DNA from: Acidobacteriota bacterium
GTDB taxonomy: Bacteria; Acidobacteriota; UBA6911; RPQK01; JAJDTT01
Reading direction: 5' to 3'
Length of the DNA: 64,000 nucleotides
NCBI GenBank assembly: GCA_028874215.1
Contig: JAPPLF010000049.1
Coordinates: forward strand, 62,001 to 126,000
Shown here: positions 7,212-62,985 of the stretch, piece after piece
Layout of the letters: each line of letters opens with the position of its first letter
Numbering within the stretch: position 1 is the first letter of the stretch
Made by a program: the position numbers and the translations under genes
Notes under the pieces: model-generated
The model's database searches: none
The model's input: the letters and a program-made list of their open reading frames with translations, nothing else
Told to the model about the DNA's origin: nothing

Positions 7212-7305
7212 CGAGTCGAGGGCCGCCAAGCGGGTGGCCCATACGGGGTCCCGGTTCCTTTCCCGCGTGTATACTCTCGGGCGAAACGAAAAACCAGGAG
7301 CAACC

Positions 7306-10065: not shown

Positions 10066-10224
10066 CAGTCGGTCCTCCTGGGAAGCCGGATTGTAGGTTT
10101 GGAGCAGGAGGGTGTCAACAGTCCGTGGTGACTTTTGCCACGGGCTGTCAGGGTTCCCGGAAGTGGGGAATCGGCCCCGAATTTGCGCCTTTTCCGACCC
10201 TTCAAGTACCATACCACCGGTGCG

Positions 10225-10248
10225 ACGAGGCGGTTTCTCCCGCCTCGT
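10225..10248. other. 9-bp-stem hairpin in the divergent intergenic region
   Basis: ACGAGGCGG, a 6-base TTTCTC loop and CCGCCTCGT form a perfect stem, extendable by a G-T and a C-G pair. It lies 34 bases before the ADH start. It could be a transcript leader structure or a regulator site. No T tract follows it. Confidence 0.45.
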
Positions 10249-10281
10249 TGACGGGCTGGAGCGTCTCGAGAGACTGACTTC

Positions 10282-14310: not shown

Positions 14311-14458
14311 GCTCTCGATCTCTTCCCCAGGGAAATTTCGATTGGCGTTCCTTCGACCACGTTTGAGGGCGCCTATTCTCTCAGAGGAGAAGATTCATTG
14401 GGAAGTGCCGGGGCCGGTCTTGCCGCCGCAGGCCAGGACCGATACCGTTGCAATCGTC

Positions 14459-15676
14459 ATGAGCGGATTCGAGAGTCAGAAACGGGTTTTGAGACGGGTG
14501 GCCGTGCTGGCCCTCCTGGTCTGGCCGCCCGCCGGGTGCGCCGGGCCGGGTCAGGAGCTTCCTTCAGGCGCCAGAGTTCGCGTTCCCGAAGGCATTCCCG
14601 AAGGGTGGTCCTCCCCGGTGGCGGCGGCCTTCGAGAGCCGGGTTCCCCAGGGACGGGTCTTTACCGTAGTGGGGAAAAACCCAAACGGGACGTCGGCTCA
14701 GTCGGATCCCGAGACCGGGATTCTATGGCTGATGGGCGATGTGCCCGCAGCCGGGAGTCACTCGGTCAAGCCGGACCCGGGAGAGGCCGCACCGGCCTTC
14801 CGAATGGTCTCGGATGACCAGGGATACCTGGTCTCCGAAGGAGACCGCCCGGTACTCTTCTACCAGTCGGCGCCCCGCTCGCTGGACGGACGTTATACGC
14901 GGGCCGGCTACGTTCATCCCCTGTACGGCCTCGACGGACAGGTGCTGACCCATGACTTCCCCGACGACCATTTGCATCACCGGGGGATCTTCTGGGCTTG
15001 GCATCAACTCTGGGTCGGAGACGAAAAGGCCGGCGACCCATGGCTGACGAAGGACTTCCTGACCGAAGTGGAACACGTCCGATTCCTCGACGGACCATTG
15101 TTTTCCGTTCTGGAGGCGACCGCACTTTGGACCTCCCCGCTAGTGAGGGACGACGCCGGTGAATTGGTTCCGCTGGTCCGGGAGCGGGTCCGGATCCAGG
15201 TGTTTCGATCCACGCCGGACTCCCAGGTCATCGACTTCCACATTCGATTCCGGGCCCTGGTGGATGGGATCCGTCTCGGCGGTTCGGAGAATCCGCGTGG
15301 ATATTCCGGCTTCACGGTCCGGGTCCACGCCTCGCCGGACGGCCGCATCCATGACCAGTCGGGAATCCAGGAAGGGGACCGGGTCGGCGAGTCCAGCCCC
15401 TGGGCCGATTACAGCGGAACATTCGGGCTGGGCGGCATGATTTCGGGCATCGGCATGTTGACCCATCCCAGCTATCCCGAGTTTCCTCCAAGATGGCTCC
15501 TGCGCAACTACGGGATGCAGAATGTCGCCTTTCCCGGCCGTCATCCCGTGGACCTGCCCCGGGGACAGCCTCTGGATCTGCGCCACCGCCTCGTCATTCA
15601 CCGGGGAGGATTCGAAGAGGCCGAGATCGCCCTGCACCAGAAGGTCTATGAAATGGTCCCGGCCCGGAGTTTCTGA
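14459..15676 (+). CDS. DUF6807 (PmoA-like) lipoprotein
   Basis: This is a 405-residue protein. The N-terminus has a hydrophobic stretch ending in a lipobox-like PAGC at about residue 22, suggesting outer-membrane or periplasmic anchoring. The body carries the DUF6807 hallmark block HPLYGLDGQVLTHDFPDDHLHHRG, then WAWHQL, ENPRGYSGFTVR and LTHPSYPEFPPRW. The family occurs beside sugar oxidoreductases and sulfatases in Planctomycetota and Acidobacteriota; its activity is not established. The start at ATG 14459 avoids overlap with the divergent oxidoreductase gene. The gap before the start is 148 bases. Confidence 0.8.
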   Translation: MSGFESQKRVLRRVAVLALLVWPPAGCAGPGQELPSGARVRVPEGIPEGWSSPVAAAFESRVPQGRVFTVVGKNPNGTSAQSDPETGILWLMGDVPAAGSHSVKPDPGEAAPAFRMVSDDQGYLVSEGDRPVLFYQSAPRSLDGRYTRAGYVHPLYGLDGQVLTHDFPDDHLHHRGIFWAWHQLWVGDEKAGDPWLTKDFLTEVEHVRFLDGPLFSVLEATALWTSPLVRDDAGELVPLVRERVRIQVFRSTPDSQVIDFHIRFRALVDGIRLGGSENPRGYSGFTVRVHASPDGRIHDQSGIQEGDRVGESSPWADYSGTFGLGGMISGIGMLTHPSYPEFPPRWLLRNYGMQNVAFPGRHPVDLPRGQPLDLRHRLVIHRGGFEEAEIALHQKVYEMVPARSF

Positions 15677-47405: not shown

Positions 47406-47447
47406 CCGTGGACGGAAACGGCGCCAATTGATCAAGGAACGTAAGTG

Positions 47448-48461
47448 ATGGTTCCAGGTAACCCATTCGCCGGCTCGGGCCAGTGGTACAGGGGTAATGT
47501 TCACAGCCACACGACGAATTCCGATGGTCAGTTCAGCGTTGCCGAATTGGCTGCCTGCTATGACCGCAATGGCTACGATTTTCTGTTCGTCACTGACCAC
47601 AACGTGGTAACGGATGTGAGCAAGAGCCGCTCACCCGGGATTCTGGTCATGCCCGGCGCCGAGATTCGCGTGGACTGGGAGGAAACCTTCCCGGCGGAGG
47701 TGCTGGCCCTTGGCATAGAACGGGTCAAGAATCACAAGGTCGCCCCACAGCGGGTTATTGGTGACGTTTTGGCACAGGGGGGACTTCCGTTTCTCTCGCA
47801 TCCGTCCCTTAGCGGCGCCAATGCCACCGCCATATCACGACTCAACGGATTGGTCGGAATCGAGATCTTCAACGCTCCCAACTACTGGACCGGGCGCCGC
47901 GGTCTCTCGACCGCGCAATGGGACGAACTGCTCGCCAACGGCCACATGCTCTGGGGTGTGGCCAGTGATGATCGGCACAGTGGCCGGAAGCCGGAGTTGA
48001 CTTTCGCGCCACTCGGAAAGCAGCCATTTCGCGACCAGTACGAAGCTTGGGTGATGGTCCGCGCCGAGTCGTGCACTGCACCGGCTATTCTTGCCGCCAT
48101 GCGCCGGGGGCAGTTCTATTCGACGACGGGGCCACGGATCAAGGACATTGCCGTTGTAGACGGGGAGATCCAGGTTGAGACTTCACCCGTACGGTGGATT
48201 TGGTTCGCTTCTGTTCCCTACCTCGGCGTGCGCCGAGTGGCAGCGCCGGGCGAGAAACTGGCGCAGGCCCGGGCGCCATTGTTTGGGCTGGCCAGTCCTG
48301 ACGGCGTTTCGGCCATGAACCGGAGATTCATCCAGCGCGGCTATTTTAAGAAGGAAAAGACGGTCGGCCACTATGTGCGGGTCGAGTTATGGGACGGGGA
48401 GGATGGCTATGCCTGGTCCAATCCGATTGACTTGAGCCGGCTGAATCAAGGACCGCGCTGA
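47448..48461 (+). CDS. PHP-domain metal-dependent hydrolase (CehA/McbA-like), copy A
   Basis: This 337-residue protein carries WYRGNVHSHTTNSDG (metal HxH at about residues 19-21), LFVTDHNVVTD, VMPGAEI, PFLSHPS and VASDDRHSG, the order seen in PHP phosphoesterases of the CehA/McbA type. A C-terminal beta domain follows from about 220 (GQFYSTTGPRI). No signal is present, so it is cytosolic. PHP enzymes hydrolyse phosphoesters, and some carbamates or amides. It is the likely operon partner of the propeller upstream. The same pair recurs at 60810-62985. Confidence 0.85.
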   Translation: MVPGNPFAGSGQWYRGNVHSHTTNSDGQFSVAELAACYDRNGYDFLFVTDHNVVTDVSKSRSPGILVMPGAEIRVDWEETFPAEVLALGIERVKNHKVAPQRVIGDVLAQGGLPFLSHPSLSGANATAISRLNGLVGIEIFNAPNYWTGRRGLSTAQWDELLANGHMLWGVASDDRHSGRKPELTFAPLGKQPFRDQYEAWVMVRAESCTAPAILAAMRRGQFYSTTGPRIKDIAVVDGEIQVETSPVRWIWFASVPYLGVRRVAAPGEKLAQARAPLFGLASPDGVSAMNRRFIQRGYFKKEKTVGHYVRVELWDGEDGYAWSNPIDLSRLNQGPR

Positions 48462-48478
48462 TGTCATACCTGTAATCA

Positions 48479-50260
48479 CTACCAGCCCACGGCGTATCCC
48501 GGGCGTCTCGGGTCGGCTCCACCCTGCAGAACGCCCCTGGCCTGATCGGCCATGATCGTGCAAACTCCGCCGGCCCGCCAGCTCCAGTCCGGCCACCAAC
48601 TGACCCGGTGACCCAGCTCCTCGAGCTCTACGCCCGTCTCCCGACGTACTCGCGATTCCATTTTCAGCAGCCCTGGAAAACAGGAATGTGGTGCGAAAGA
48701 GCTGGGAAAACTGTAGGAAGCAAAACGGGGCGCTTCGACCGCCTCCTGGGGGTTCATACCGAAGATGAGAACATTGAGGAGGACCTGAAGCATGGCCTGT
48801 GGCTGCACATCCCCGCCCGGAGTACCGAACGGCATGAAAACGCCCCCGTTCCGCAACGCCAGGGCGGGGTTGGGCGTCAGGCGCGGTCTTTTCCCGGGAG
48901 CGAGACAAGCCGGATGACTCGGATCCAGACGCGACTGCGAGCCACGCGAAGAGACCGCCAGGCCGGTTCCCGGAATGATCGGTGTGTCGTAGGACACATC
49001 GCTTGGAGTGGCCGAAAAGGCGTTTCCGTCTCGATCAACGACGCAGACGTAGCTCGTGTCCCAGCCAGGCCGCTTTGGATTTCCAGCTTCGCCGGAAGAG
49101 TTCGCCGGTCCCCGCGACGAATCGGCTGGCGACTCACCGGCTGTGCCCAACCGGCTGGGCGGAGGCATCTCTACCCACGCCTGGTGTGAGCGGATGAGCC
49201 CTATCCGTTGGTTGGCGTTCCGCTCGGAAAGGAGTTCGGCCATAGGCACTTTGACATGGAGGGGGTCACCGTAGAAGTGTTCGCGGTCAGCGAATGCCAA
49301 TTTGAGGGCCTCCGTCAAAATGTGCACATACGGCGCCGAGTTGTGCCCCAAGGATTTCAGGTCATAGGCCTCCAGCAGCTTGAGGGTCTGGAGCAGAGTC
49401 GGACCCTGAGACCATGGTCCACAAGCATAGATCTCAGTGTCCTGGAAGGTGATTTTCTCGGGTGGCTCGATTCTCACGCGAAAGTTGGACAGGTCCTGAG
49501 CGGAGAGGAGTCCACCATTCTCATGGTGGTATTGGACAATTCTTACTGCAATGTCCCCTCTGTAGAATGCATTTCGTGCCGATTGCAATCCTGCCAGACG
49601 TCCACGGCGCGATGCGCTCCGCTCCTCCTCAACCATGTACTGGAGAACGGCTCCTAAATCGTGTTGGAAAAAGATCTCTCCGGGTGTGGGGGGACGACCG
49701 CCAGGGAGAAAGACCTGGGCGCTGCTCTCCCAACGACGGTAGTCCTCCTCCGCCTCGCTAATCCGGGCGCTCATGAACGAGTGCATGGGGAAACCATGGG
49801 AAGCAAACCGGATGGCTGGCCCGGCCACCTGGCCAAAACTCATGCGCCCAAACCTCTCCAGCGCCGTAATCCAAGCGTCTGGGGCGGCTGGCACGACCGT
49901 TCGCAACAGTCCCTCCGGGATTCTTCCTCCGTGCTCCCTCCGGAACAGATCCACGCTGGCTGCCTGGGGCCAAACGCCCAGACCGCTGATGGTCACCACC
50001 TCCTGCTGGTCAGCCAAGAACAGAACAATGGGGGCGACGCCGGCGACGCTTACCAGGTCACTCTGCACGACACCGAGAGCGAGACCTGCTGCCACACCGG
50101 CGTCAACCGCATTGCCTCCCTCCTCCAGGATCTGCATGCCGGCCTGTGCCGCCAGATAGTGCCCGGCTACGACCATGTGTTCGGTCCCCATGACGACCGG
50201 CCTAAGGGAACGAAGCTCGTCTCTTGCTTCAGTCTTTTCAGTCAGACCGTGGATAGACAC
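48479..50260 (-). CDS. Gamma-glutamyltransferase-family Ntn hydrolase, copy A
   Basis: This is a 593-residue GGT/cephalosporin-acylase-type protein. Start GTG 50260 has a strong AGGAGGAGGA upstream. The large-subunit part includes AGMQILEEGGNAVDA and WSQGPTLLQTLKLLEAYDL. The catalytic Thr of the small subunit is Thr402 in GWDTSYVCVVDRDGN, just after a Gly/Ser/Pro-rich linker. FMPFGTPGGDVQPQAMLQV is the late oxyanion-region block. There is no signal peptide, unlike secreted GGTs. The enzyme would self-cleave and hydrolyse gamma-glutamyl or related amides. The motif DTSY replaces the common TTHY. Confidence 0.88.
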   Translation of the reverse strand: MSIHGLTEKTEARDELRSLRPVVMGTEHMVVAGHYLAAQAGMQILEEGGNAVDAGVAAGLALGVVQSDLVSVAGVAPIVLFLADQQEVVTISGLGVWPQAASVDLFRREHGGRIPEGLLRTVVPAAPDAWITALERFGRMSFGQVAGPAIRFASHGFPMHSFMSARISEAEEDYRRWESSAQVFLPGGRPPTPGEIFFQHDLGAVLQYMVEEERSASRRGRLAGLQSARNAFYRGDIAVRIVQYHHENGGLLSAQDLSNFRVRIEPPEKITFQDTEIYACGPWSQGPTLLQTLKLLEAYDLKSLGHNSAPYVHILTEALKLAFADREHFYGDPLHVKVPMAELLSERNANQRIGLIRSHQAWVEMPPPSRLGTAGESPADSSRGPANSSGEAGNPKRPGWDTSYVCVVDRDGNAFSATPSDVSYDTPIIPGTGLAVSSRGSQSRLDPSHPACLAPGKRPRLTPNPALALRNGGVFMPFGTPGGDVQPQAMLQVLLNVLIFGMNPQEAVEAPRFASYSFPSSFAPHSCFPGLLKMESRVRRETGVELEELGHRVSWWPDWSWRAGGVCTIMADQARGVLQGGADPRRPGYAVGW

Positions 50261-50362
50261 TGATCCTCCTCCTGGCTTGCCACCTCGACTGCCTGGAAAT
50301 CGGTCATATATTGCTCCCAAACCTAACCGATCACTCGGGGCGGGATGGCTCCCGGCACGATT

Positions 50363-50451: not shown

Positions 50452-51876
50452 ATGGGTGTTCAATTGACCCGCCGGCAATATCTGTCTGCGTCAGCGACCG
50501 CTTTGGCGGCCACCAGTCTTGTCAGTGCCGGCAAGAAGAAGTCGGCCGCGAGTTCCATTCCACCGGTTGAGGCCCTGATTACGGGTGATGGACCCCGGGT
50601 GGACTTCGAGAAGTATCGACAGATCATCGTCTCCCCCGATGTCAATCCACCGGAGCCGTTCCGCGGGTTTGGCGGTTACTGCGGGTGGCCGACGGTCTGC
50701 CGACTGCAGAATGGCGACCTGTTCATGACCTTCTCAGCCGGTTATTGGCACGCTTCCTGGCCCACCCCTTGGGACATGCCTCCGGAGGCCTGGGAACGCA
50801 TCAAAAGGCCTGATCGGGAATGGCTCCTGGACTGGGATGCGCCCGAGGGCGGAAGGTTGATGTGGGTCCGCAGCCGGGACCAGGGGAAGACCTGGAGCCG
50901 TCCCCGGTCGTTTCCGGTGGTGCCTGGCGCCTACTACGTCGGGGACGTTGTTCAACTGAGTGACGGCACGATGATTGCGGGAGTCCGGCTGAAACCCCAT
51001 TGGGGCTACTGGAACCAGATGCCCACGACGCCCCTTGAATTCGCCCGGATCATGGCCAACCGGCAGTCCAAGACCCTGATCTTTCGAAGCGACGACGACG
51101 GCCACACCTGGAAGGAGGTGACTAGGTTCGTGGGGCCCTTCGATATGGACGCCCCGTACAGCATGTTCGAAAGCAAGGATGGTGCGTTGCTGCTATTCGC
51201 CGCCGGCAGTTGCATTCCCGGGGGCAACGGCTGGCCCACCGAAGATCCCCGCTGGTTCATGGTCCTCATGCGCTCTGAGGACAAGGGCCGCACCTGGTCC
51301 ACCGTATCGGTGATTGGGAGCAATGACTGGGATGCGGACGAGGGCACCGCCGCCTACTTGCCGGACGGGAGTCTGGCCTTCCCCTGCCGGCCGACGTCGG
51401 CTTGGTTTCAGTCCTACGACGACGGGCAGACCTGGTCGCCGCCGCGTCTGCTCCTGACAGACCCCATCATCGAAGACCCTGACTTTGGAAGCGAGTATCG
51501 CGGCCCCAAGTTGTACCGGAGGGGTGAACTGGTGGTGACACCCGACGGCGTATCGGTCGTGGTCTTTGGGGGTCGGCACAAACTCAGCAGCGACGATCCT
51601 CAGGTGCCGAACAACGGAGAAGTGATCTACAGCCGCGACAATGGGAAGACCTGGGTGAAACCGGCGCCGGGCCGCGGCTTCAAGTGTGATCCCAAGTCTT
51701 ACTACCCCAGCGCCTGCGTTCTGGAGGACGGCTCCATCTTCATGGTCGGACAAAGAGAAGGCTTCAAAAACCGATTTGGCCCCCATGGATCGGAAGTGAC
51801 TTCGGTCCGGTTCCGCATCAAAAAACCCGAGGAGGGTGAGGGCGTCGAACTTCTGTCCATTGGCGGACCGACTTGA
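50452..51876 (+). CDS. Tat-signal Asp-box propeller (sialidase-like), copy B
   Basis: This protein is 474 residues, the same length as copy A. The Tat-like start is LTRRQYLSASATALAATSL; blade 1 is PFRGFGGYCGWPTVCRLQNG, and the Asp-box turns are SRDQGKTWSRPR, SDDDGHTWKEVT, SEDKGRTWSTVS, SYDDGQTWSPPR and SRDNGKTWVKPA. Most positions match copy A. Unlike copy A, no PHP gene follows. AAGGAGGAGG precedes ATG 50452. It is divergent from the GGT gene across 191 bases that contain the palindrome. It probably has the same class of substrate with altered specificity. Confidence 0.85.
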   Translation: MGVQLTRRQYLSASATALAATSLVSAGKKKSAASSIPPVEALITGDGPRVDFEKYRQIIVSPDVNPPEPFRGFGGYCGWPTVCRLQNGDLFMTFSAGYWHASWPTPWDMPPEAWERIKRPDREWLLDWDAPEGGRLMWVRSRDQGKTWSRPRSFPVVPGAYYVGDVVQLSDGTMIAGVRLKPHWGYWNQMPTTPLEFARIMANRQSKTLIFRSDDDGHTWKEVTRFVGPFDMDAPYSMFESKDGALLLFAAGSCIPGGNGWPTEDPRWFMVLMRSEDKGRTWSTVSVIGSNDWDADEGTAAYLPDGSLAFPCRPTSAWFQSYDDGQTWSPPRLLLTDPIIEDPDFGSEYRGPKLYRRGELVVTPDGVSVVVFGGRHKLSSDDPQVPNNGEVIYSRDNGKTWVKPAPGRGFKCDPKSYYPSACVLEDGSIFMVGQREGFKNRFGPHGSEVTSVRFRIKKPEEGEGVELLSIGGPT

Positions 51877-52035: not shown

Positions 52036-53472
52036 CTAGATTGGCATTTCGACGATCACTTCTCTGACCTTGATCGCTTTTCGCTGCCGGCCCTGCTCAT
52101 CTCTGTACTGAAAGTCGGAATACGCAACGATGAACCGGTCGGATCCCGTGACGACCACATCCGTATTGCTGCAGCTGATGACCCTGGTTTGGGCGGAGCC
52201 GTGTCCGGCGTGGCTCAGGGCCATGCGCTCTTCTCTGGACTCGGCCATCAACTGCGCCTCCACGGGGCCCACCAGCGGAAAGGCATTGGTCCAGGTCCTT
52301 CCGCTGTCCGCCGAAGCGCGAACATGCACGCCTGGCCTCCCATACACGACCGCAACGGTGCCGTTGTCCAAGGTGCGCAAGTGGGGCGTGACGCTGAAGG
52401 GCGCAATCGCCTCCGGCCTGCTCCAGGTGTAGCCGTTATCCGAGGAGCGCGCCGCGGCCAGCGAATGCACCACCTTCGTAAAGGGACGCGTTCCCAGCGT
52501 GTTGCCCGCCATCCGGGTACGCATAATGCACAGTAGATCCCCGTCGGGCATCCTCTGCAGTGATTGCTCGCCGCAGCCGTACCCCCAATCGGCCAGCTCC
52601 AGCTGATCGGCGATCGTGCCACGGATTCCCCAAGTCTGTCCCCCGTCGCTGGAAGCGACACATTGGACGCGAAAGAACATACTCTGAATGCGTGGATCCT
52701 GACTGGCGAGTGGCCAGAGGAGCGTGCCGTCGGGCAGCACGACCAACCGGTCCGGCCACAGGACGGAGGCTGCATCCCGCGGCGTCGTTGAGATCATAGG
52801 CGCTATTTCATGCCAATCTCCTTTGGCGTCCGGGGCACCGATCGGGGTACGCAGCAGCAGGTCGGACGAGTCAAAATGAGCATATTCGTCCTGCCAGGGA
52901 GCATTCGGTCCTTTACGGCGCTTAACGGGGATCCGGGTCAGCCTCTCAGGCAGGTCGGCGTAACGATAATGAGCCGCAATCAGGCCAGGTTTCTTGGTTG
53001 TGAAGGCAAGTTTGAGACCAAGCTCATCCAGGCTGTGGAATTCCCGCGGCCGAGGTCCGTAGGTCGAATAATGATAGACATACTTTTCAGTGCCGAAGGC
53101 CACCTGCTCACCACTCGGCAGGGCAATGACATCTGGAGAGAAGTCCACCTGATCTTCCCGTATCGGCTGCCAGGATTCTCCATTATCCCGGGAGACGAAG
53201 AATCGGGTGGGCTCGCGTTCCCCGACGTCGTTGGCGTCCTCACCCACGTTTACTGCCAGGTACAGCTCTCCGCCCGGGGCCCTCCACATGTCCGGAAAAG
53301 CGTAATAACCCCAACGCAGATCGCCTGGGGGACCCAGCATGACTATTACCGGCGGACCCAGCTCGACGCGTGGTGCCCGGGCGGCCGGCTCCTTCTCCGT
53401 GGTTTCTACGCCGGTCTGGCAGTTGCTCAGAACCGAGAGACAGAGCAAGCTGGCGGCAATTGTTCTCTTCAT
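52036..53472 (-). CDS. Lipoprotein sialidase-like propeller, paralogous to 63686
   Basis: This is a 478-residue protein. The signal ends in the lipobox-like LSNC at about residue 18. The opening LGPPVIVMLGPPGDLRWGYYAFPDMW and FFVSRDNGESWQPI are shared with the partial gene at the right edge. Later Asp-box turns include SSDGGQTWGIRG, SSDNGYTWSRPE and SADSGRTWTNAF. It is the last gene of a same-strand run after two members of the unknown secreted family (gaps 55 and 37 bases), so it probably shares their transcript. The substrate is not determined. Confidence 0.82.
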   Translation of the reverse strand: MKRTIAASLLCLSVLSNCQTGVETTEKEPAARAPRVELGPPVIVMLGPPGDLRWGYYAFPDMWRAPGGELYLAVNVGEDANDVGEREPTRFFVSRDNGESWQPIREDQVDFSPDVIALPSGEQVAFGTEKYVYHYSTYGPRPREFHSLDELGLKLAFTTKKPGLIAAHYRYADLPERLTRIPVKRRKGPNAPWQDEYAHFDSSDLLLRTPIGAPDAKGDWHEIAPMISTTPRDAASVLWPDRLVVLPDGTLLWPLASQDPRIQSMFFRVQCVASSDGGQTWGIRGTIADQLELADWGYGCGEQSLQRMPDGDLLCIMRTRMAGNTLGTRPFTKVVHSLAAARSSDNGYTWSRPEAIAPFSVTPHLRTLDNGTVAVVYGRPGVHVRASADSGRTWTNAFPLVGPVEAQLMAESREERMALSHAGHGSAQTRVISCSNTDVVVTGSDRFIVAYSDFQYRDEQGRQRKAIKVREVIVEMPI

Positions 53473-53527: not shown

Positions 53528-54421
53528 TCATGGTTTCGGCAGCGGAGGATTGGAAGGAAATGTGGCGATGCTGAATTCGTCCAAATCAATCATGCCCTTC
53601 GGCTGATCCAAAGGATCCACTTCAACCAGAATGAATCCGAAAACGTAAATTTTGCCGTTGCCCAGAACGTATGGAAGTGATCCGTCTCCAAAGCTGAGAC
53701 TTTGTCGAATCTGGATCTTCTTGCGCAGACCTCCGTTTATCAAACCCAAATAGGTCCACTTGCGCTCGTCGGGTTCCAATTGGAACTCCACATCGTGCCA
53801 CTTCCCATCCGTCAAGTGGGCTTCCAGCGGGACCGAGGTCAGTGCCCACCAGCGGTGTCCCTCCCGCCGAAGAGAACTGACGGTGGATCTGGGCCGTTTG
53901 TCTGCCGGAGAGGTGTTGCGAATCGGAGGAGCACTTCCCCCCAGCCAAAAGTACAGTTTGGTTCCCTTCAGCTCCACGTCTCGCCCGCGCAGGGACACCC
54001 TGACGATGGCATTGCGCAGGTCCTGACCCACCACCGGACTTGGTTCTCCCGGTCTTCCCTGCTTCTCAGGCTCCGTGTATCGGTTGGCGATCAAGTGCAG
54101 CCAGCCGAAGTGGCCGTGATTGTCATCGAAGTACCAGGGCGACTCGGAATAGGCGAACCCACCCGAACGGCCTCCTCTCTCACGCCACTTCAGAAAAACC
54201 GGCTCTCCGTAGAAGCCCAGGATATTGCGATGCCAAGTGACGCCACGGGTATGGGTCTTGTCTTTTCCCACGTGCCAGGCTTCCGGTCCCCGGTCAAAGC
54301 CGTGCGCAGCTACGACGTTCCCCAATGCCGGCTTTGCACCTGCCGCTTGGCCGGCCACAGGATGGAACACTGATGTGAAGAAAACCACGAGTCCTATTTT
54401 CTTGGTCAAATTTTGTTTCAT
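53528..54421 (-). CDS. Unrecognised secreted family 'SPWYFDDNHG', member 1
   Basis: This 297-residue protein has a signal peptide (IGLVVFFTSVFHPVAG). Conserved blocks shared with the genes at 54459 and 58960 are GGRSGGFAYSESPWYFDDNHG, LRNAIVRVSLRGRD, HRWWALTSVPLE, GKWHDVEFQLEPDERKW, LGLINGGLRKK and IDLDEFSI (quoted in pieces). The alternation of aromatic and charged strands suggests a beta-jelly-roll such as a lectin, carbohydrate-binding module or polysaccharide lyase. I recognise no named family. It differs from the others by an insertion (SAPPIRNTSPADKRP). ATG 54421 gives the best signal peptide. Confidence 0.75.
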   Translation of the reverse strand: MKQNLTKKIGLVVFFTSVFHPVAGQAAGAKPALGNVVAAHGFDRGPEAWHVGKDKTHTRGVTWHRNILGFYGEPVFLKWRERGGRSGGFAYSESPWYFDDNHGHFGWLHLIANRYTEPEKQGRPGEPSPVVGQDLRNAIVRVSLRGRDVELKGTKLYFWLGGSAPPIRNTSPADKRPRSTVSSLRREGHRWWALTSVPLEAHLTDGKWHDVEFQLEPDERKWTYLGLINGGLRKKIQIRQSLSFGDGSLPYVLGNGKIYVFGFILVEVDPLDQPKGMIDLDEFSIATFPSNPPLPKP

Positions 54422-54458
54422 TAGCCACCTGTCTGACCGGAGCGTGAAATTATGTTCC

Positions 54459-55244
54459 TCACTCCTCGCCGCTGAGGGTGATGCTGAATTGATCGATGTC
54501 GATCTTTCCGGAGGGAGGATCCAGGGGATCCACATCTACGAGAATAAAGCCCCAGTTGTAGAGTTTGCCGTCGCCCAGAACTTCTTCCAATGTCCCCTGC
54601 CCAAAGGAAAGACTTTGAATCACGCGGATCCTCTTTCGCAGCCCACCATTGATCAACCCCATGAAGCTCCATTTGCTTTCATGGGGATCCAGTGTGAAGC
54701 TGACGTCGTGCCAATTTCCATCCGTCAAGTAACCCTCGAGAGGAACGGAGGTCAAAGCCCAGCATCGGTAGACCCAGGGGCCTTTCGCGGGAGGAGCCTG
54801 ATTCCAATAGTAGAACCTGGTTCCCTTCAACTGCATATCTCTCCCCCGCAGCGAGAGTCGAACCGTGGCATTCCGTACGTCTTTCCCGGTCGTCGGCGCC
54901 GCTTCGTCCACCGGGTATGTGGACCAGCCCGTGCGCTTGCCGAAGACCAGGTACAGCCACCCGAATTCTCCGTGGTTATCGTCGAAGTACCAGGGTGATT
55001 CGGCAGTGGCGTATCCTCCGGAGCGTCCGCCGCTTGGGCTCCACTTCAGAAACACAGGCTCGCCGTAATAGCCAAGAATGTTGCGGTGCCAAGTCTCTCC
55101 CTGGGTATGGGTCTTGTTTTTCCCGGTAGTCCATCCTCCCGCTCCCTGATCGAAGCTTTCTCGGAAAATGACCTCGGCCGGCAAACTGAGTGTGATCAGC
55201 AGAAAAACACCCAACCAAACGGAGTATTTGCCCACTCCCCTCAT
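54459..55244 (-). CDS. Unrecognised secreted family 'SPWYFDDNHG', member 2
   Basis: This 261-residue protein has a signal peptide (VWLGVFLLITLSLPA). It shares SPWYFDDNHGEFGWLYL, RNATVRLSLRGRDMQLKG, CWALTSVPLEGYLTDGNWHD, GLINGGLRKRIRVIQSLSFG and KIDIDQFSI with its paralogues. It is first in a three-gene same-strand run ending in the lipoprotein propeller. The conserved Trp, Tyr, Asp and Arg residues would suit a sugar-binding cleft. No catalytic triad could be defined. The 218-base gap upstream shows no operator-like palindrome. Confidence 0.75.
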   Translation of the reverse strand: MRGVGKYSVWLGVFLLITLSLPAEVIFRESFDQGAGGWTTGKNKTHTQGETWHRNILGYYGEPVFLKWSPSGGRSGGYATAESPWYFDDNHGEFGWLYLVFGKRTGWSTYPVDEAAPTTGKDVRNATVRLSLRGRDMQLKGTRFYYWNQAPPAKGPWVYRCWALTSVPLEGYLTDGNWHDVSFTLDPHESKWSFMGLINGGLRKRIRVIQSLSFGQGTLEEVLGDGKLYNWGFILVDVDPLDPPSGKIDIDQFSITLSGEE

Positions 55245-55462
55245 CTTTCCCTCCTATTGGCTCGAAAAAAGTGGTCGCGACCGTTCACGCTCGGGTCCTC
55301 AATGTGCTTCCACCTCCAATAGATGAAGAGTCCCTTTCTCAGCATGATGTAGAAAAGCCGGGTTGAAGCGGCAGTCCGGGCCGCGCGCTCAAGCGACGCA
55401 AGGCGGTCGTAAAGTCAATGCCACCAGTCTTGGCGCCGAGTCCGGCAAATTGAGATAGCGGT

Positions 55463-56062
55463 TCAAGGAGGTAGCTCGATCAAGGTCTCGGCCAGCGCAA
55501 AGACGCAGGAACTGCGAGCTCCCGGCAGGTAAGGCTCCCAGATGTCTCTCAAGAACGGGTTTCCCGGAATCGGCTGACCGTCGACTTCGACTGAGGCCCG
55601 CTCGGTAAAGAATAAAGCTGTGAAATGTTCGGTGCCGGGACGAAAGGTGCCTTGGGCGATAACCGGTGGCTCCGTAACCCACCATCGGGCCACGATTCGG
55701 TGCTCGTGGGTTTCGATGACCCAGGCCGGGTCCCTTCGGATGTCTCCTTCACGAAAGAAACGAGCTTGCACAATGGGAGCCTTCGGATCCTGGAACGTGC
55801 TTCGAATCAGGAAATTGTCTTGGGTAAACCTCCCTACCTCCGGGACATCGACACATATCAGGCTCAGCTGGCGGTCCGCCCGAATGACGATCTGGGCCGT
55901 ATTACCTTCACCGGCCGGACTGTAGCGTGTGTGGTAGAGGCTCACCCAGGCGCTGGGAATCTCGCCTTCCGGAGACTGGAGGCCGTTGATCCAGTGCTCG
56001 CCCGACCACAACAGACGGCCCGGGTTGATTTGTACGGGTTTGGTCTGTTCCGATTCAGCCAC
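55463..56062 (-). CDS. Unknown protein divergent from the HpaI-type aldolase
   Basis: This is a frame of about 199 residues, if GTG 56062 is used; the longer frame overlaps the aldolase gene on the opposite strand and is unlikely. It has the aromatic block RLLWSGEHWINGLQSP and strand-rich segments such as GNTAQIVIRADRQLSLICVD. It ends with SSCVFALAETLIELPP. No signal peptide and no family are recognised. TATAAT read on the minus strand from 56116 to 56111, inside the shared palindrome, could be its -10 box, so it would be regulated together with the aldolase. Confidence 0.5.
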   Translation of the reverse strand: MAESEQTKPVQINPGRLLWSGEHWINGLQSPEGEIPSAWVSLYHTRYSPAGEGNTAQIVIRADRQLSLICVDVPEVGRFTQDNFLIRSTFQDPKAPIVQARFFREGDIRRDPAWVIETHEHRIVARWWVTEPPVIAQGTFRPGTEHFTALFFTERASVEVDGQPIPGNPFLRDIWEPYLPGARSSCVFALAETLIELPP

Positions 56063-56105
56063 GAGAATCTGAGTCCCCGGTTCGTGATAAGCTTCTTCCA
56101 GGGAG

Positions 56106-56116
56106 TATAAATTATA
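56106..56116. promoter_or_regulatory. Palindromic operator candidate TATAA-A-TTATA
   Basis: An exact 5 + 1 + 5 inverted repeat abuts the aldolase ATG at 56118, with GGGAG just before it. A protein bound here would cover the ribosome site region and a putative -10 box for the divergent gene. Confidence 0.5.
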
Positions 56117-56117
56117 A

Positions 56118-56900
56118 ATGTTTGAGAACAAAGTAAAGACGCTTTTGGCCGAGGGGAAGGCTGCCTGGGGAGCAGGACTCCCCGACCGGTCCGATTTCAT
56201 TGCCAAACTGACTGTGGATACGGGCATCGACTTTCTCTGGATCGATACGGAACATCGACCCTATGACGCGACCGATATCCCATGGATTCCGGTGCTTTGC
56301 CGGATGAAGGGGTGTGTTCCCATCGTGCGGGTGGCCGGACTGGATCCGCAACTCATAAAGAAGGCTCTCGACGTCGGTGCTGCGGGGGTGATGTTGCCCC
56401 AGATCAACAATGCCGAAGAGGCCCGCCGGGCTGTTCAATATGCCAAATATCCTCCCGAAGGCTCACGCGGCGTCTCCCCCTGGTGGACTTTCTTCATGGA
56501 CGTTTCCTATGAAGAGTATCTGCCGGCGGCCAATCAGGAGACGTGTGTCATCGTGCAAATTGAGAGCCGCGAAGCGATCGACAACCTGGAGGAAATTGCT
56601 GCCGTCGAGGGAGTCGACGTGCTCTTTGCCGGCCCCTTGGACATTACTGCGGCCCTGGGTCATATCGGCCAATTGGAGCATCCCGAGATTCAAGGCTTCT
56701 TGGAGGAATTTCCCCGCCGGGCCGCGAGTTGCGGAAAAGCCAGCGGCATCACCTTGAGAGGATTCGAGGCCGGCAGAAAGGCCTATGATGCCGGGTACCG
56801 GTTCATTGTGATCGGTGGCCTTATCATTCAGGGCATTGAGGGCTTGAAGGCAGATCTGGAGAGATTGAGAGCATACGCTCGCGAATCGGCGTCCTCGTAG
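56118..56900 (+). CDS. HpcH/HpaI-type class II aldolase
   Basis: This 260-residue TIM-barrel protein opens with KVKTLLAEGKAAWGAG and shows DFLWIDTEHRPYD (metal Glu/Asp and catalytic His region). The blocks PIVRVAGLDPQLIKKALDVG, GVMLPQINNAEEA, VIVQIESREAIDNLEEI and VLFAGPLDITAALG follow. Family members include KDR/2-keto-3-deoxy-L-rhamnonate aldolase and 4-hydroxy-2-oxoheptanedioate aldolase, which give pyruvate plus an aldehyde. It is cytosolic, and most likely splits a 2-keto-3-deoxy-sugar acid made by the dehydratase at 39368. GGGAG serves as the ribosome site, separated by the palindrome. Confidence 0.9.
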   Translation: MFENKVKTLLAEGKAAWGAGLPDRSDFIAKLTVDTGIDFLWIDTEHRPYDATDIPWIPVLCRMKGCVPIVRVAGLDPQLIKKALDVGAAGVMLPQINNAEEARRAVQYAKYPPEGSRGVSPWWTFFMDVSYEEYLPAANQETCVIVQIESREAIDNLEEIAAVEGVDVLFAGPLDITAALGHIGQLEHPEIQGFLEEFPRRAASCGKASGITLRGFEAGRKAYDAGYRFIVIGGLIIQGIEGLKADLERLRAYARESASS

Positions 56901-57134
56901 GGACAGGGTGAATCGTCCCGTGGTGAGAGTCCCGCGTAGCACCGAGACCGGCGGCGCACTCGCCGAACAAGACGCGACGAGGGCGCGAACTCGACCGTTT
57001 ATGACCTGGGAATTACGCCGTCCGCGGTGGCGCGGACCCGGTCGAATGCCGTGTCGACTATTGACCACGGCTGCAAGAGCTGACGCAGCAGAAAGCAGGA
57101 TGCGCGTCAACTTTGCGAGGCAAAGGGAACTGGG

Positions 57135-58871
57135 GTGAAACGCAGTATCTGGCGACCCGTCAAGGACGAGGTTGTATCCGATTTTGGAGCGGTTGTGACC
57201 TCCCATCCCTTGGCTTCCGAGGTGGGGGTCCAAATCCTGTCTGAAGGTGGAAACGCCGTTGACGCCACGGTTGCCATGGGTTTCTGTCTGGCCGTGGTGG
57301 AGCCCTGGGCCTCTTCCATTGCCGGTCACGGGCAGATGCTCATCCACATGGCCGAGCAGCAAGCCAGTCTGGCCCTTGATTTCAGCCATCGTGCTCCGGC
57401 GGCTGCCACTCCCGAGATGTACCGCGTCATCGGTCGAACCCGAGAGGTAATCGGGCTTTTCGAGGTTGAGAATCGGGCCAATGTCTCCGGCTACGAGGCG
57501 ATCGGCGTCCCCGGCGTCACTGCGGGCCTGTGTCGAGCGCACCAGCTCTATGGAAGCCTTCCTCTACAACGACTTCTGGAGCCGGCGATTCATTACGCGG
57601 AGCAGGGGTTTGTCGCCAACTGGCTGACGACGCAGCAGATTGCCGAAGTCATGGGAGATTTCGTGAAATACCGGGTTCCCGCGCGGATCTTTCTGCGGGA
57701 TGGATATCCTCCGGTCAGCGGCGTGGATCGGGTGATACAAGCCGATCTGGGCCAGGTTCTGCGACTGATTGCCCGTCAAGGCGCGAGGGGCCTGTATCGC
57801 GGAGAACTGCCGCACACCGTTGAAGCGGACATGAAGAAGAATGGCGGTCTGCTCAGGGCGGAAGACTTCGGCCGTTACGAAGTCGTGGCGACAGAGCCGG
57901 TGACAATCAGGTGCCGGAACCACGAGATCCTGGGAATGCCCGGACCCAGCGGGTGTACGACGACTCTGCAAGCCCTGAAGATTCTCGAGCATTTTGATTT
58001 AGCTGAACTGGGACACAATTCCGCCGAATACCTTCATCTTGTGATTGAGTCCACTCGCCACGCTTTCGCCGACCGATACCGTTTTCTCGGAGATCCCGAC
58101 TTTGTACCGGTCCCTGAAAAAGCTCTCTTGTCTACTGACTATGCCCGGGACGTCGCCCGGCTGATCGATCCCGCAAGAACGGCTTTTGCGCAGGCTTCGG
58201 ATCAACCCTGGGTCAGGTTTGCCGACAGGGCTCTGCACCGGCCCTGGCGCTATCAGGAAGGCACGCCCATTCTGGAGGATCCTCCTCCTTCCCCTCCGCA
58301 GGACGACCAGTGCACGACTCACTTTTCCGCGATCGACAGACAGCGAAACATGGTTTCCTGCACCCAGACGGCCGTCAGCCGGTTTGGCTCCCGTGTCATC
58401 ACATCCGGGACCGGACTCCTCTTCAGCAGCGGGATGGTGGTCTTCAATCCGGTTCCGGGATCGGCCAACTCAATTGCCGGCTTCAAACGGGGACTCAACA
58501 ACATGGCGCCGCTCCTGCTGCTCAAAGAGAGAAAACCCTTCGCCAGCCTGGGCGCTGTCGGCGGGAGACGGATCATCAGTTGCAACACCCAGATCGTGCT
58601 GAACCTCATGGACCGGCAGATGAGCCTTCAACAAGCCATCGCCGCTCCTCGCGTGGATACTTCGGAAGCCGTCACCCTTGCCGACTTGAGACTGGATCCT
58701 GAGTGCCGGGAAGGATTGGCCAGGATCGGACACGAAGTCGAAGTTGTGGAAGAGTCTCCGTCTCTGGATTCCGGTTTTGCCAGGCCCTTGGGCATAATGG
58801 TTGACCCCATAACGAACCGCATCCGGACGGGCGTGGATGTCTTTCGCATCTCCGAAGCTCGAGGGATATAG
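57135..58871 (+). CDS. Gamma-glutamyltransferase-family Ntn hydrolase, copy B
   Basis: This 578-residue protein starts at GTG 57135 after AAAGGGAA. EVGVQILSEGGNAVDATVAMG, GPSGCTTTLQALKILEHFDL and ECxG-type pocket blocks precede the processing site. The catalytic Thr is Thr394 in DQCTTHFSAIDRQRN, the standard TTH motif. The late block FASLGAVGGRRIISCNTQIVLN completes the family. There is no signal peptide. It is distinct from copy A in sequence, so it is not a recent duplicate. Hydrolysis of gamma-glutamyl amides or acyl groups is expected. The 234-base gap before it has no recognised features. Confidence 0.9.
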   Translation: MKRSIWRPVKDEVVSDFGAVVTSHPLASEVGVQILSEGGNAVDATVAMGFCLAVVEPWASSIAGHGQMLIHMAEQQASLALDFSHRAPAAATPEMYRVIGRTREVIGLFEVENRANVSGYEAIGVPGVTAGLCRAHQLYGSLPLQRLLEPAIHYAEQGFVANWLTTQQIAEVMGDFVKYRVPARIFLRDGYPPVSGVDRVIQADLGQVLRLIARQGARGLYRGELPHTVEADMKKNGGLLRAEDFGRYEVVATEPVTIRCRNHEILGMPGPSGCTTTLQALKILEHFDLAELGHNSAEYLHLVIESTRHAFADRYRFLGDPDFVPVPEKALLSTDYARDVARLIDPARTAFAQASDQPWVRFADRALHRPWRYQEGTPILEDPPPSPPQDDQCTTHFSAIDRQRNMVSCTQTAVSRFGSRVITSGTGLLFSSGMVVFNPVPGSANSIAGFKRGLNNMAPLLLLKERKPFASLGAVGGRRIISCNTQIVLNLMDRQMSLQQAIAAPRVDTSEAVTLADLRLDPECREGLARIGHEVEVVEESPSLDSGFARPLGIMVDPITNRIRTGVDVFRISEARGI

Positions 58872-58959
58872 CGGAAGCATAATTCGCACTCACCGTCGCC
58901 GGAAGCCCAGTTGGTCGACGCGGCCGGTGCCTCAGGCACTACTGCGACTTGGATAGCCT

Positions 58960-59739
58960 TTACTCGGATGCGACGATTCTGAATTCATCAATGTCGATCT
59001 TGCCCTGCGGGAGGTCTCGAGGATCGATACCGCAGAGCAGAAAGCCAAAGTTCCAATGCTTGCCGGCGAGGATCCCTTCGAGAAATCCGTCCGCCATGGT
59101 GCGACTCTGAATCACCCTGATCTTCCTGGCCAGACCTCCGTTGATCAAACCCAGTTGGCTCCATCGAGTTTCGTCGGTCGTGAGCTGAAAGGACACGTCG
59201 TTCCATTGACCATCGCGTAGCGCGTCCTCCAGAGGCTCGGATGTCAGGGCCCAGTTCACCAAGGCGGGTTTTGTATAGTAGCCACTGCGTCCGCCCTCTC
59301 CTTGAATCCAAAAATACAGTTTCAAGTCGTTTACGGCCAAGTCGCGGCCCCTCAGCGAGAGCTCTACCCGGGCGTTACGGAGATCTTTGCCCTGAATGCC
59401 GATATCTTTTGTTTGGCGAACCCGGAGGACGATATGAAACCAAAAGAACTCTCCGTGGTTATCGTCGAAGTACCAGGGTGAAGAGGAGGTAGCATAGCCT
59501 CCTGATCGACCCCCCTGGGGGGTCCATTCCAAGGGAGCTCCCCAACCCATGTACCCCAAAATGTTCTTGTGCCAAGTCTCAGGACCTCGATTGATTTCCG
59601 TATTCTTGCCCACCGTCCAACCTTGCTGAGGTCCCGTGGAGCCGTTCCCTTGGTCAAAGGTTTCGCGGTAGATCACCTCGCCAGCCAGCCAGGTTGCGGT
59701 CATGACGGTGATGAAAAAGATTTGCAAACATCGGGGCAT
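58960..59739 (-). CDS. Unrecognised secreted family 'SPWYFDDNHG', member 3
   Basis: This 259-residue protein has a signal peptide (FFITVMTATWLAG). It shares SSSPWYFDDNHGEFFWFH, DLRNARVELSLRGRD, NWALTSEPLEDALRDGQWND, QLGLINGGLARKIRVIQSR and GKIDIDEFRIV with members 1 and 2. It is divergent from a decayed TIM-barrel gene, with a palindrome-like site between them. The N-terminal half includes its own insertion near GNGSTGPQQGWTVGKN. The function is unknown; a carbohydrate-related jelly-roll is my best guess. Confidence 0.75.
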   Translation of the reverse strand: MPRCLQIFFITVMTATWLAGEVIYRETFDQGNGSTGPQQGWTVGKNTEINRGPETWHKNILGYMGWGAPLEWTPQGGRSGGYATSSSPWYFDDNHGEFFWFHIVLRVRQTKDIGIQGKDLRNARVELSLRGRDLAVNDLKLYFWIQGEGGRSGYYTKPALVNWALTSEPLEDALRDGQWNDVSFQLTTDETRWSQLGLINGGLARKIRVIQSRTMADGFLEGILAGKHWNFGFLLCGIDPRDLPQGKIDIDEFRIVASE

Positions 59740-59840: not shown

Positions 59841-60709
59841 ATGAAAAATCGAAGGGTCTTTCTGCAAGGCATCGGGGGAGTTGGGCTGTGGACCTCTGCG
59901 ACTTTACCGTCCGCACGAGGTAGCCGGTTCTTGCAGCCGGAGATCGTTCGCGAGAGAACGAAGGCAAGATTGCAAAGGCGCCCTATCATCTGGAACAACG
60001 ATGGCAGCGACATTCAGTCGATCGCTTACGCTGGTGGAAAATGGCCGATTCCTCTGGAATCGGTCGAGCAGTTCTGGGACGGAACCTTGCGATTCTTGGA
60101 GGGCACGTCCGTGGAGACCATCCTCTACTGCGCGCGCACCAATGAGCCGGATTGGGAGTTCCCGACAAAATACATTGAAGTGTTGGGGCCGAATCCGGTC
60201 CAGCATGTCGTCGACTTCGCGCGCAAGCACCAGAAGGAGTTTTTTTTATTCCATCCGCATGAACGATGTGCACTGCTCGCGCTACGTTCCGAAAGCCGGA
60301 TACTGGTCCTCCCTCAAGCTGGCCCATCCCGAACTCCTGCTTGGCTATATCTCACGTACCCACTGGGAGGAAATGGTCGTCCCTTGGCTGAATCGATTCA
60401 TGCCCATCGAGGAGCAGCGTTGGAAAACGAAGCTGTATGACCCCGAGAAGGAGAGGGAGCTTCTCAGGCAATCGGAAGCAGCGCACCCCCTGAAGGACAT
60501 GTTTCAAAGGGAGGGCGTGGCTTCGCGCGATCTGTGGTTCTGGGGCGGTTTGGATAGACGACGCGGGCTGGGTTGAATTCAAAATCGATCCGCGGAACTT
60601 GAAAAAAGGCAAGAACACACTTCGGGTAACTGTCGAACCTCCCCCTCGGGGTGACCCCGCCGAGCCCGTACAGATCGTAGATGTTCGCATCCGACTCGGT
60701 TACAGTTGA
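59841..60709 (+). pseudogene. Decayed paralogue of the TIM-barrel lipoprotein, frameshifted and internally deleted
   Basis: The N-terminus (NRRVFLQGIGGVG, IIWNNDGSDIQSIAY, TNEPDWEFPTKYIEVLGPNP) matches the intact gene at 32286. At the T8 run 60241-60248 the frame shifts; the next frame continues SIRMNDVHC, LAHPELLLGYISRTHWEE and ASRDLWFWGG. The text then jumps straight to WIDDAGWVEF and KNTLRVTVEPPPRGDP, the counterpart of the intact protein's last 45 residues, ending at 60709. Roughly 300 codons, including the barrel's GVELDW region, are missing. It therefore cannot be active. Confidence 0.85.
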
Positions 60710-60809
60710 TGCAAAATCCCCTGGCCGCATACTCACAGACCCGGGACGGGCCAGGGAAGGGTTCCCCGCCCAGTACCGGCCAGATCAAGATGAGGTAACC
60801 AAGACCATC

Positions 60810-61955
60810 ATGAATGCTCTCAGAATCTTGGATCAAGGCGTCCTGTACCGCAATCCCCATCCGGGTCATCGGGCCATCATCGCCTACGCTCCTTGCGTGC
60901 AGCCGCTCTCAGGGAAGGAATTGATCTGCGTCTTCCGATATGGCCAGGCCATGTACTCCCGCGACGGGATGATTCACCAGCTCCGGTCCAACGACGGAGG
61001 AGAGACGTGGGAGCACGAGGGTCCCATTCGCGACCGCTTCCGCGACGACAGCCACTACAATTACCGGGGCGCCCAGATCACGATGCTCCATGACGGCAGC
61101 TTGGTGATGAAGGTGAATCGAGCGGAGCATTCCGACCCGGACCATTTCTATTTCAACCAGGAAACTGGCGGCATTAGTCACTGCCAGACCCTCTATCTCC
61201 GCTCCTTCGACGGGGGCAGGACCTGGTCCGACCCGCCGCAGGCCAGCTTGCCGCCCCTGCCTTCCGGACTGGAGCCGGCGGCGGACGGTCCCGCCATCGT
61301 ACTGGAAGACGGAAACTGGATGCAGATCTTCGAGACTTGGAAGTCCTACGATAATGCCGGCCCTCACTTGAACAAGACCTTCGCCCTTTTCTCCAGCGAC
61401 GCCGGCAAGAATTGGGGCGACTGGGTGGACGTGGCCGATGGGACCGCCGAAGACCGCTCCTATTCCCATGGGAGTTTCATCCGCTTGTCCAATGGGCGGC
61501 TGCTGGGCTCTCTCTGGACCGGAAACCTGGCAATGACCCAGTTCTTCGATCTCCACTTCGTGACCTCTCTGGACGCGTCGGGAAGGACCTGGAGCCGTCC
61601 TCGGGCGTCGAAGATCCCGGGGCAGACCAGTGGGCTGGTAGAGATGGGCGCGGGCCGGCTGGTTCTGGTCTATTCCCACCGGGAAAATACGGACCAACCC
61701 GGCATCAAGCTCATCTTCTCCGAGGATGGGGGAGAGACCTGGAGCCAGGATCCGGTGGTGGTCTGGGACGCCTACGGCAAGGAGGCGCTAGGCGTGCCCC
61801 GGACCGACCGATATCCCAGCAGTCATGACGTCATCGCCTACGGGGCTCCCCAGATCATCGGCCTGGCCGCGAATGAGCTGATGGTCAGCTTCTGGTGCAC
61901 GCAGTCGGGCGACACCCATGCGCGTTACTGCAGGTTGAGGCTGGAGGGGGACTGA
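60810..61955 (+). CDS. Sialidase-like Asp-box propeller without signal peptide, paired with PHP
   Basis: This 381-residue protein starts at ATG 60810 (MNALRILDQG). Asp-box turns SNDGGETWEHEG, SFDGGRTWSDPP, SSDAGKNWGDWV, DASGRTWSRPRA and SEDGGETWSQDP mark a six-bladed propeller. The end block MVSFWCTQSGDTHARYCRLRL is the same subfamily as the protein at 29538. There is no export signal. It is followed after 31 bases by a PHP-domain gene, repeating the arrangement at 45981-48461. Its composition is more GC-rich than the propellers of the island. Confidence 0.82.
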   Translation: MNALRILDQGVLYRNPHPGHRAIIAYAPCVQPLSGKELICVFRYGQAMYSRDGMIHQLRSNDGGETWEHEGPIRDRFRDDSHYNYRGAQITMLHDGSLVMKVNRAEHSDPDHFYFNQETGGISHCQTLYLRSFDGGRTWSDPPQASLPPLPSGLEPAADGPAIVLEDGNWMQIFETWKSYDNAGPHLNKTFALFSSDAGKNWGDWVDVADGTAEDRSYSHGSFIRLSNGRLLGSLWTGNLAMTQFFDLHFVTSLDASGRTWSRPRASKIPGQTSGLVEMGAGRLVLVYSHRENTDQPGIKLIFSEDGGETWSQDPVVVWDAYGKEALGVPRTDRYPSSHDVIAYGAPQIIGLAANELMVSFWCTQSGDTHARYCRLRLEGD

Positions 61956-61986: not shown

Positions 61987-62985
61987 ATGCCGATGCATCT
62001 CTTTGAAGGCCCGGGCCAATGGTACCGGGGCAACGTCCACAATCACACCACCAATTCGGACGGTCTCTTTGGCCTGAACGAACTGGCGACGTGGTACACC
62101 CGCCACGAATACGATTTCCTCTTCGTCACCGACCACAACCTGGTCACCGACGTCAGCGGGCACCCATCCCGCGAGATCCTCGTCCTGCCGGGTGCCGAGA
62201 TCGGGGTCAAGTGGCAGGAGACCTTTCCGGCCGAGGTCCTGGCCCTGGGAATTCAGCGGATGGCGAGCCATATGGCAAGTCCACAGCGAGTCATCGATGA
62301 AGTGCTGGAGCAGGGTGGAATCCCCTTTCTCTCCCATCCTTCCCTGAGTGGTATCTCTTCCGCCGCCGTTTCCCGATTGAAGGGTCTGGTGGGAATCGAG
62401 ATCTTCAACGCGCCCAACCACTGGAACGGACGCCGTGGCGATTCCACCGCCCAGTGGGACGAATTGCTGGCCGGGGGGCACAGGCTCTGGGGCGTGGCCA
62501 GCGACGATCGGCACAGCGGAGTCCGTCCCGAGCTGACCTTTGCTCCACTGGGCCGGCAGCCGTTCCGTGATCAGGCCGAAGCCTGGATTATGGTCTGGGC
62601 CCGGACTCGGACTTCCGCCGAAATTTTGGAGGCCATCCGGCAGGGCCGTTTCTACTCCACGACCGGACCGCGAATCGAGGAGATCACGGTAGAGGACGGC
62701 GAGATCCGGGTGAAGACCACGCCCGTTCGTTCGGTCTGGTTCGCCTCGTCACCCTGGCTGGGCGTCCGTCGGGTGGCGCCAGCGGGTGACCGCCTGACGG
62801 AGGCCCGTGCACCGCTTTCGGCCCTGGCCACTCCCGGCAAGATCGCGGAGATGACCGATCGATTTCTGGATCGGGGCTATTGGGAGCGGCCTCGAGTCGT
62901 GGGATGTTACGTCCGGGTCGAGCTGTGGGACGGCGAGGACGGTCGTGCCTGGTCCAATCCAATCGACCTGAGCCGGGAGGGGTAA
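61987..62985 (+). CDS. PHP-domain metal-dependent hydrolase (CehA/McbA-like), copy B
   Basis: This 332-residue protein shows WYRGNVHNHTTNSDG (HxH at residues 18-20), FVTDHNLVTDVSG, VLPGAEIGVKWQETF, GIPFLSHPSLSG and GVASDDRHSG. GRFYSTTGPRI marks the C-terminal beta domain. It is highly similar to copy A along the entire chain. It is cytosolic. The association with a propeller in two places suggests a joint pathway step, for example hydrolysis of an ester or phospho-sugar released by the propeller enzyme. Confidence 0.85.
   Translation: MPMHLFEGPGQWYRGNVHNHTTNSDGLFGLNELATWYTRHEYDFLFVTDHNLVTDVSGHPSREILVLPGAEIGVKWQETFPAEVLALGIQRMASHMASPQRVIDEVLEQGGIPFLSHPSLSGISSAAVSRLKGLVGIEIFNAPNHWNGRRGDSTAQWDELLAGGHRLWGVASDDRHSGVRPELTFAPLGRQPFRDQAEAWIMVWARTRTSAEILEAIRQGRFYSTTGPRIEEITVEDGEIRVKTTPVRSVWFASSPWLGVRRVAPAGDRLTEARAPLSALATPGKIAEMTDRFLDRGYWERPRVVGCYVRVELWDGEDGRAWSNPIDLSREG

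Follow-up and report, generated by a model that had tools for sequence, protein, structure and literature searches.

What do three related, secreted proteins that belong to no named family do among the sialidase-like propeller genes of an acidobacterial genome? A sequence-only reading of the 64,000-nucleotide stretch of DNA analysed here (the window) had drawn attention to these genes (Table 1) and suggested that they look like a new polysaccharide-binding or polysaccharide-cleaving family. We favour a version of the first suggestion, in which the three paralogues are non-catalytic glycan binders that resemble carbohydrate-binding modules (CBMs) and serve adjacent propeller enzymes, and put its probability at about 0.5.

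Three paralogues in a catabolic island

The kinship of the three genes is readily confirmed. The open reading frames are present and their products align from end to end with pairwise identities of 49-57% (57% and 49% to the first alignment row, and 54-57% to paralogue 2), and cross-matches between paralogue types in tblastn against the sister genome G003 have E-values of 6e-62 to 6e-92, far above chance. The motifs listed in the earlier reading are all there: SPWYFDDNHG, SLRGRD and WALTS[VE]PLE occur in each protein, as does [LM]GLINGGL..(K/R)I, which begins with L in two proteins and with M in the product of the gene at 54459. Each protein also opens with a typical signal peptide, as that reading had noted, with no lipobox, and each consists of a single domain; no catalytic domain is fused to the clade A domain in the window. 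The start of paralogue 1 has been corrected from 54535 to the ATG at 54421, which is likelier because it yields a signal peptide, whereas the longer frame overlaps the 3' end of paralogue 2.

Table 1. Paralogues and neighbouring genes, with coordinates in the window.
Feature	Coordinates	Strand	Remarks
Paralogue 1 (clade A)	53528..54421	-	Signal peptide MKQNLTKKIGLVVFFTSVFHPVAGQA; dN/dS 0.20 against G003 orthologue
Paralogue 2 (clade A)	54459..55244	-	Signal peptide MRGVGKYSVWLGVFLLITLSLPA and one predicted beta-sandwich domain; mature part ~54462-55175; dN/dS 0.11 against G003 orthologue
Paralogue 3 (clade A)	58960..59739	-	Signal peptide MPRCLQIFFITVMTATWLAG; G003 orthologue 95% identical
BNR/sialidase-like beta-propeller lipoprotein	52036..53472	-	PF13088, E=2e-12; LSNC lipobox; start ~53472; downstream of paralogues 2 and 1
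BNR/sialidase-like propeller	50452..51876	+	Weak PDB sialidase match, E=3e-5; BNR_2 family match
BNR/sialidase-like propeller near paralogue 3	60681..61955	+	PF13088, E=3e-17; PDB sialidase 7af2, E=4e-4
Gamma-glutamyltranspeptidase between paralogues	57135..58871	+	PF01019, E=2e-123
HpcH/HpaI-type aldolase	56118..56900	+	PF03328, E=8e-33; TIGR02311 below cut-off
CehA/McbA-type metallohydrolase	61987..62985	+	NF038032 above cut-off

Paralogues 2 and 1 and the BNR lipoprotein form a same-strand run, in that order, with gaps of only ~37 and ~55 bp, and this arrangement, also remarked on in the earlier reading, is kept in G003 (locus L011). The description of the surroundings as glycan enzymes was accurate in part: the window encodes six BNR propellers together with an outer-membrane beta-barrel protein and a sodium:solute symporter, but it also encodes two gamma-glutamyltranspeptidases, the HpcH/HpaI aldolase, CehA/McbA hydrolases, an enolase-superfamily enzyme and a 2-hydroxyacid dehydrogenase. 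The window is a catabolic island and not purely glycan machinery. Paired genes flank the paralogues, gamma-glutamyltranspeptidase-like at 48479-50320 (-) and 57135-58871 (+) and CehA/McbA-like at 47445-48461 (+) and 61987-62985 (+), a sign of segmental duplication.

Comparison with the sister genome shows each paralogue to be either under purifying selection or closely conserved. Against the G003 orthologues the BNR lipoprotein has a dN/dS of 0.17, which lies between the values for paralogues 2 and 1, and orthologues are 90-95% conserved between species. Three copies of one transposase-like gene (297-1652, 6929-8287 and 14144-15499 of locus L011) surround the orthologous cluster in G003, which suggests a mobile or rearranged island, and of the four genomes in the window's genus two lack the clade A cluster. 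A gene near paralogue 3 (59841-60576, + strand) carries a frameshift at about residue 135, a point that its G003 homologue crosses in one frame. The patchy presence of the cluster, the repeated transposase genes and the frameshifted neighbour are what might be expected if the paralogues were merely decaying, functionless tandem duplicates whose likeness is trivial; this is very improbable, as full-length frames, dN/dS values of 0.11-0.20 and the interspecies conservation contradict it and mark the window paralogues as functional genes.

An uncatalogued family of four clades

Searches with the three paralogues returned nothing from Pfam or NCBIfam at E<=10 and no significant match among PDB sequences. 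A three-row profile recovered six further, more distant members from the bacterium's own genome, and iterative rounds of searching enlarged the set to 57 non-redundant domains, none of which has a meaningful match in Pfam (E<=10) or NCBIfam or any match among PDB sequences. The sequence-only reading was thus right that the family could not be named, and the strong match to an established family that would have spoken against its novelty was found in none of these three collections. This is a real protein family, uncatalogued in Pfam and NCBIfam, of a known structural kind. One PHROG match to an HNH endonuclease family (E=0.006) involved a single member and was taken as chance, and a search of viral contigs, phages and plasmids found no relatives.

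The family is present in all four genomes of the window's genus, and among 396 Acidobacteriota it was otherwise seen in one genome elsewhere in the class, with one further doubtful short match. Seven of 392 evenly drawn Planctomycetota genomes carry it, as do 47 of 170 genomes of one planctomycete order; a single scan of an 84,980-genome collection, sensitive to close relatives only, found three loci.

A maximum-likelihood tree divides the family into four groups, A to D, each split off by branch support of at least 97/96. Clade A contains the three window proteins and a single protein from a planctomycete, in which the domain lies in frame with DUF2064; the frame concerned (9167-10723 of locus L012) is a putative fusion with this nucleotidyltransferase-like domain. 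Clade B comprises proteins of ~230 aa with the motif D.NHAPPG, most of which lack a signal peptide: a clear lipoprotein signal is seen in only two of the 27, and more than 20 open directly with a short M...YxETFD segment. Clade C members are short and carry RWRIDTPE, and three of the four are lipoproteins; clade D consists of secreted proteins of ~600 aa in which an Fn3-like domain, the family domain, an F5/8 type C domain and Fn3-like repeats follow one another. The F5/8 type C domain is divergent, NedA-like (galactose-binding) and CBM32-like, and clade D has no recognised catalytic domain, its only partners being the Fn3-like and F5/8 type C domains. The earlier description of the family as secreted therefore fits clades A, C and D, whereas it fails for most of clade B, whose apparent want of export signals warns against assuming a single secreted role for the whole family.

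Predicted fold and conserved residues

AlphaFold2, given the 57-row family alignment, produced an all-beta model with pLDDT 85 and pTM 0.86, so that a beta-sandwich fold is predicted with good confidence; a model from the three paralogues alone (pLDDT 37) was discarded. The structure-based search proposed in the earlier reading, run as Foldseek against the PDB, placed CBM30 (1wzx) first (E=9e-4) with CBM11 (6r3m) and CBM22 (4xup) close behind at probabilities of 0.99-1.00, with modest TM-scores of 0.35-0.46 normalised to the query and up to ~0.65-0.66 to the target for CBM22 (4xup). A GH181 sialidase and FlaA1 are also near the top, and meprin/MAM domains and viral capsid-like jelly rolls are further fold neighbours.

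The likeness to CBMs, as far as the model goes, is one of fold only and not of sequence. The family is predicted to share the two-sheet beta-sandwich of CBM30, CBM11 and CBM22, and by fold it would qualify as a CBM4/9/22-type module, but hhalign against 18 Acidobacteriota CBM_4_9 domains gave a probability of 1.1%, and with no Pfam match in any of the 57 members we rejected membership of CBM_4_9 (PF02018) by sequence. Furthermore, modules of that type lie within a carbohydrate-active enzyme polypeptide, whereas the window proteins are single-domain, no catalytic domain is recognised in clade D and the family is mostly unfused to glycosidases. At ~230 aa the domain is also larger than the ~130-175 aa of the CBM30, CBM11 and CBM22 modules, and it has motifs of its own (DxNH, W155, W169 and PxG...D).

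Other known domains differ more plainly. The F5/8 type C or NedA-like (CBM32-like) domains of sialidases belong to the same general fold class and share polypeptides with the family domain in clade D, but they form a separate domain there and the family domain has no sequence match to them. GH33 sialidases and BNR propellers are often genetic neighbours but differ in fold; Asp-box repeats and a BNR propeller, sought in the family with profiles and in the model, are absent. The spacing of glycines and aromatic residues gave an impression of superficial likeness to laminin B (domain IV) and other extracellular jelly rolls; laminin B (PF00052) was rejected, as it gave no Pfam match at E<=10 and does not appear in the first 50 structures of the PDB fold search.

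Across the family alignment W15, G111, W155, W169 and G223 are invariant, and E6 and D228 nearly so. By analogy with CBM beta-sandwiches, we presume that E6 and D228 could hold a structural calcium and that the conserved aromatics could hold ligand, both as candidate sites. The D65-x-N67-H68 motif does not vary within clades A and B and is kept in 16 of 19 clade D rows, which exceeds what a pure scaffold needs, and it might instead, with R110 and Q126, mark the active site of a new enzyme (a jelly-roll lyase, an esterase or a hydrolase). The size of the domain, bigger than most CBMs, and the frequency with which family genes stand alone would fit such an enzyme, but clade C has D..PE, with P and E for N67 and H68, and yet keeps the fold motifs; no match to Pfam or NCBIfam families was found, and of the 50 PDB structures that rank highest by fold none was recognised as a lyase or hydrolase catalytic domain or as a jelly-roll polysaccharide lyase. 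We consider an enzyme unlikely, and the earlier suggestion of polysaccharide cleavage gained no positive support.

Propeller neighbours and a proposed role

The 5.7 Mb genome encodes ~66 BNR (sialidase-like) genes and yields up to 112 matches, some of them split, to another type of propeller, akin to GH130, GH32 and GH43. This second type has an N-terminal GSRxELFVDDxLI motif, is barely detected by Pfam (best E 2.5e-4) and was assigned as glycoside hydrolase-like through PDB matches to 1,2-beta-mannobiose phosphorylase (E=4e-8) and beta-fructosidase, with weak GH32N/GH43 matches. Because both types are so abundant, their association with the family was tested against random placement: a BNR propeller lies within 1.5 kb of three of the seven family loci in this genome (P=0.003) and a propeller of either type within 5 kb of six of the seven (P=0.002), in islands that are clustered and with several distances tried. 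The association is accordingly of modest strength, supportive and not decisive. In several planctomycetes a propeller of one or other type adjoins a family gene, and at locus L156 a clade B gene is separated from a clade D gene by a BNR propeller and an MFS transporter; a propeller of either type occurs within ~8 kb at 9 of 33 inspected planctomycete loci, a raw manual count uncorrected for the base rate there.

From the CBM-like model, the F5/8 type C partner in clade D, the propeller neighbours, the signal peptides, the dN/dS values of 0.11-0.20 and the run with the BNR lipoprotein, we infer that the three single-domain beta-sandwich proteins would bind glycans without cutting them. The ligands would be glycans that stem from the host or the symbiosis (in a sponge, sialylated or sulfated glycans of the mesohyl are plausible), and they may then be presented to the sialidase-like propellers encoded alongside, one of them the same-strand downstream lipoprotein; triplication may have led to slightly differing ligand preferences. 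The earlier proposal of polysaccharide binding is thus borne out at the level of fold, by the CBM32-like domain of clade D and by genome context, but not as regards the ligand. A stretch identical to the window occurs in the Acidobacteriota MAG RHO1_bin_34, and the name of this bin suggests the sponge Rhopaloeides odorabile as host. That species is among the sponge hosts of a study that reported both the enrichment and the lateral transfer of GH33 sialidases in symbiont MAGs, as well as sialic-acid residues in the sponge mesohyl (PMC8163846), findings that fit glycan capture.

Several observations count against a glycan-binding role: the modest query TM-scores, the many roles that beta-sandwiches serve, the FlaA1 and meprin/MAM matches, the dissimilar CBM_4_9 profile, the lack of a fused catalytic domain in clade A, the joining of its planctomycete member to DUF2064, and the sheer number of propellers in the genome. 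Glycan capture fits clade B least well, since its proteins mostly lack export signals. Given so generic a fold, the proteins might be structural or adhesive, or might bind a small molecule or a protein partner, as FlaA1, MAM domains and capsid-like jelly rolls among the fold neighbours would allow; the signal-less majority of clade B, encoded beside metabolic genes (MFS transporter, amidohydrolase, DHDPS-type aldolase, PhyH, DUF1501), points the same way. We regard this as possible but doubtful, for CBMs are the best matches among solved structures, clade D has a further domain that is glycan-binding-like, and glycoside hydrolase-like propellers recur close by. A broader form of the glycan-binding reading, rather unlikely as a whole, would make this a new glycan-recognising beta-sandwich family, uncatalogued in Pfam and NCBIfam, that is secreted in three clades and has shifted to the cytoplasm in planctomycetes, where it would handle imported glycan fragments, with DxNH as an undescribed kind of binding or catalytic centre.

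With this analysis the inventory of glycan-degradation islands in sponge symbionts and planctomycetes gains a domain family that neither Pfam nor NCBIfam lists. Should its members bind defined glycans, they would serve as new probes of the glycans of sponges and the sea and help to explain how symbionts that encode well over 100 propeller enzymes partition their substrates. A separate question, raised by the signal-less clade B, is what role such a domain has inside the cell. Clade B and D genes have recurrent surroundings at the planctomycete loci L156, L163, L135, L136 and L140, where an MFS transporter and amidohydrolase-like, BNR, PhyH, DUF1501 and FG-GAP genes are found in varying composition.
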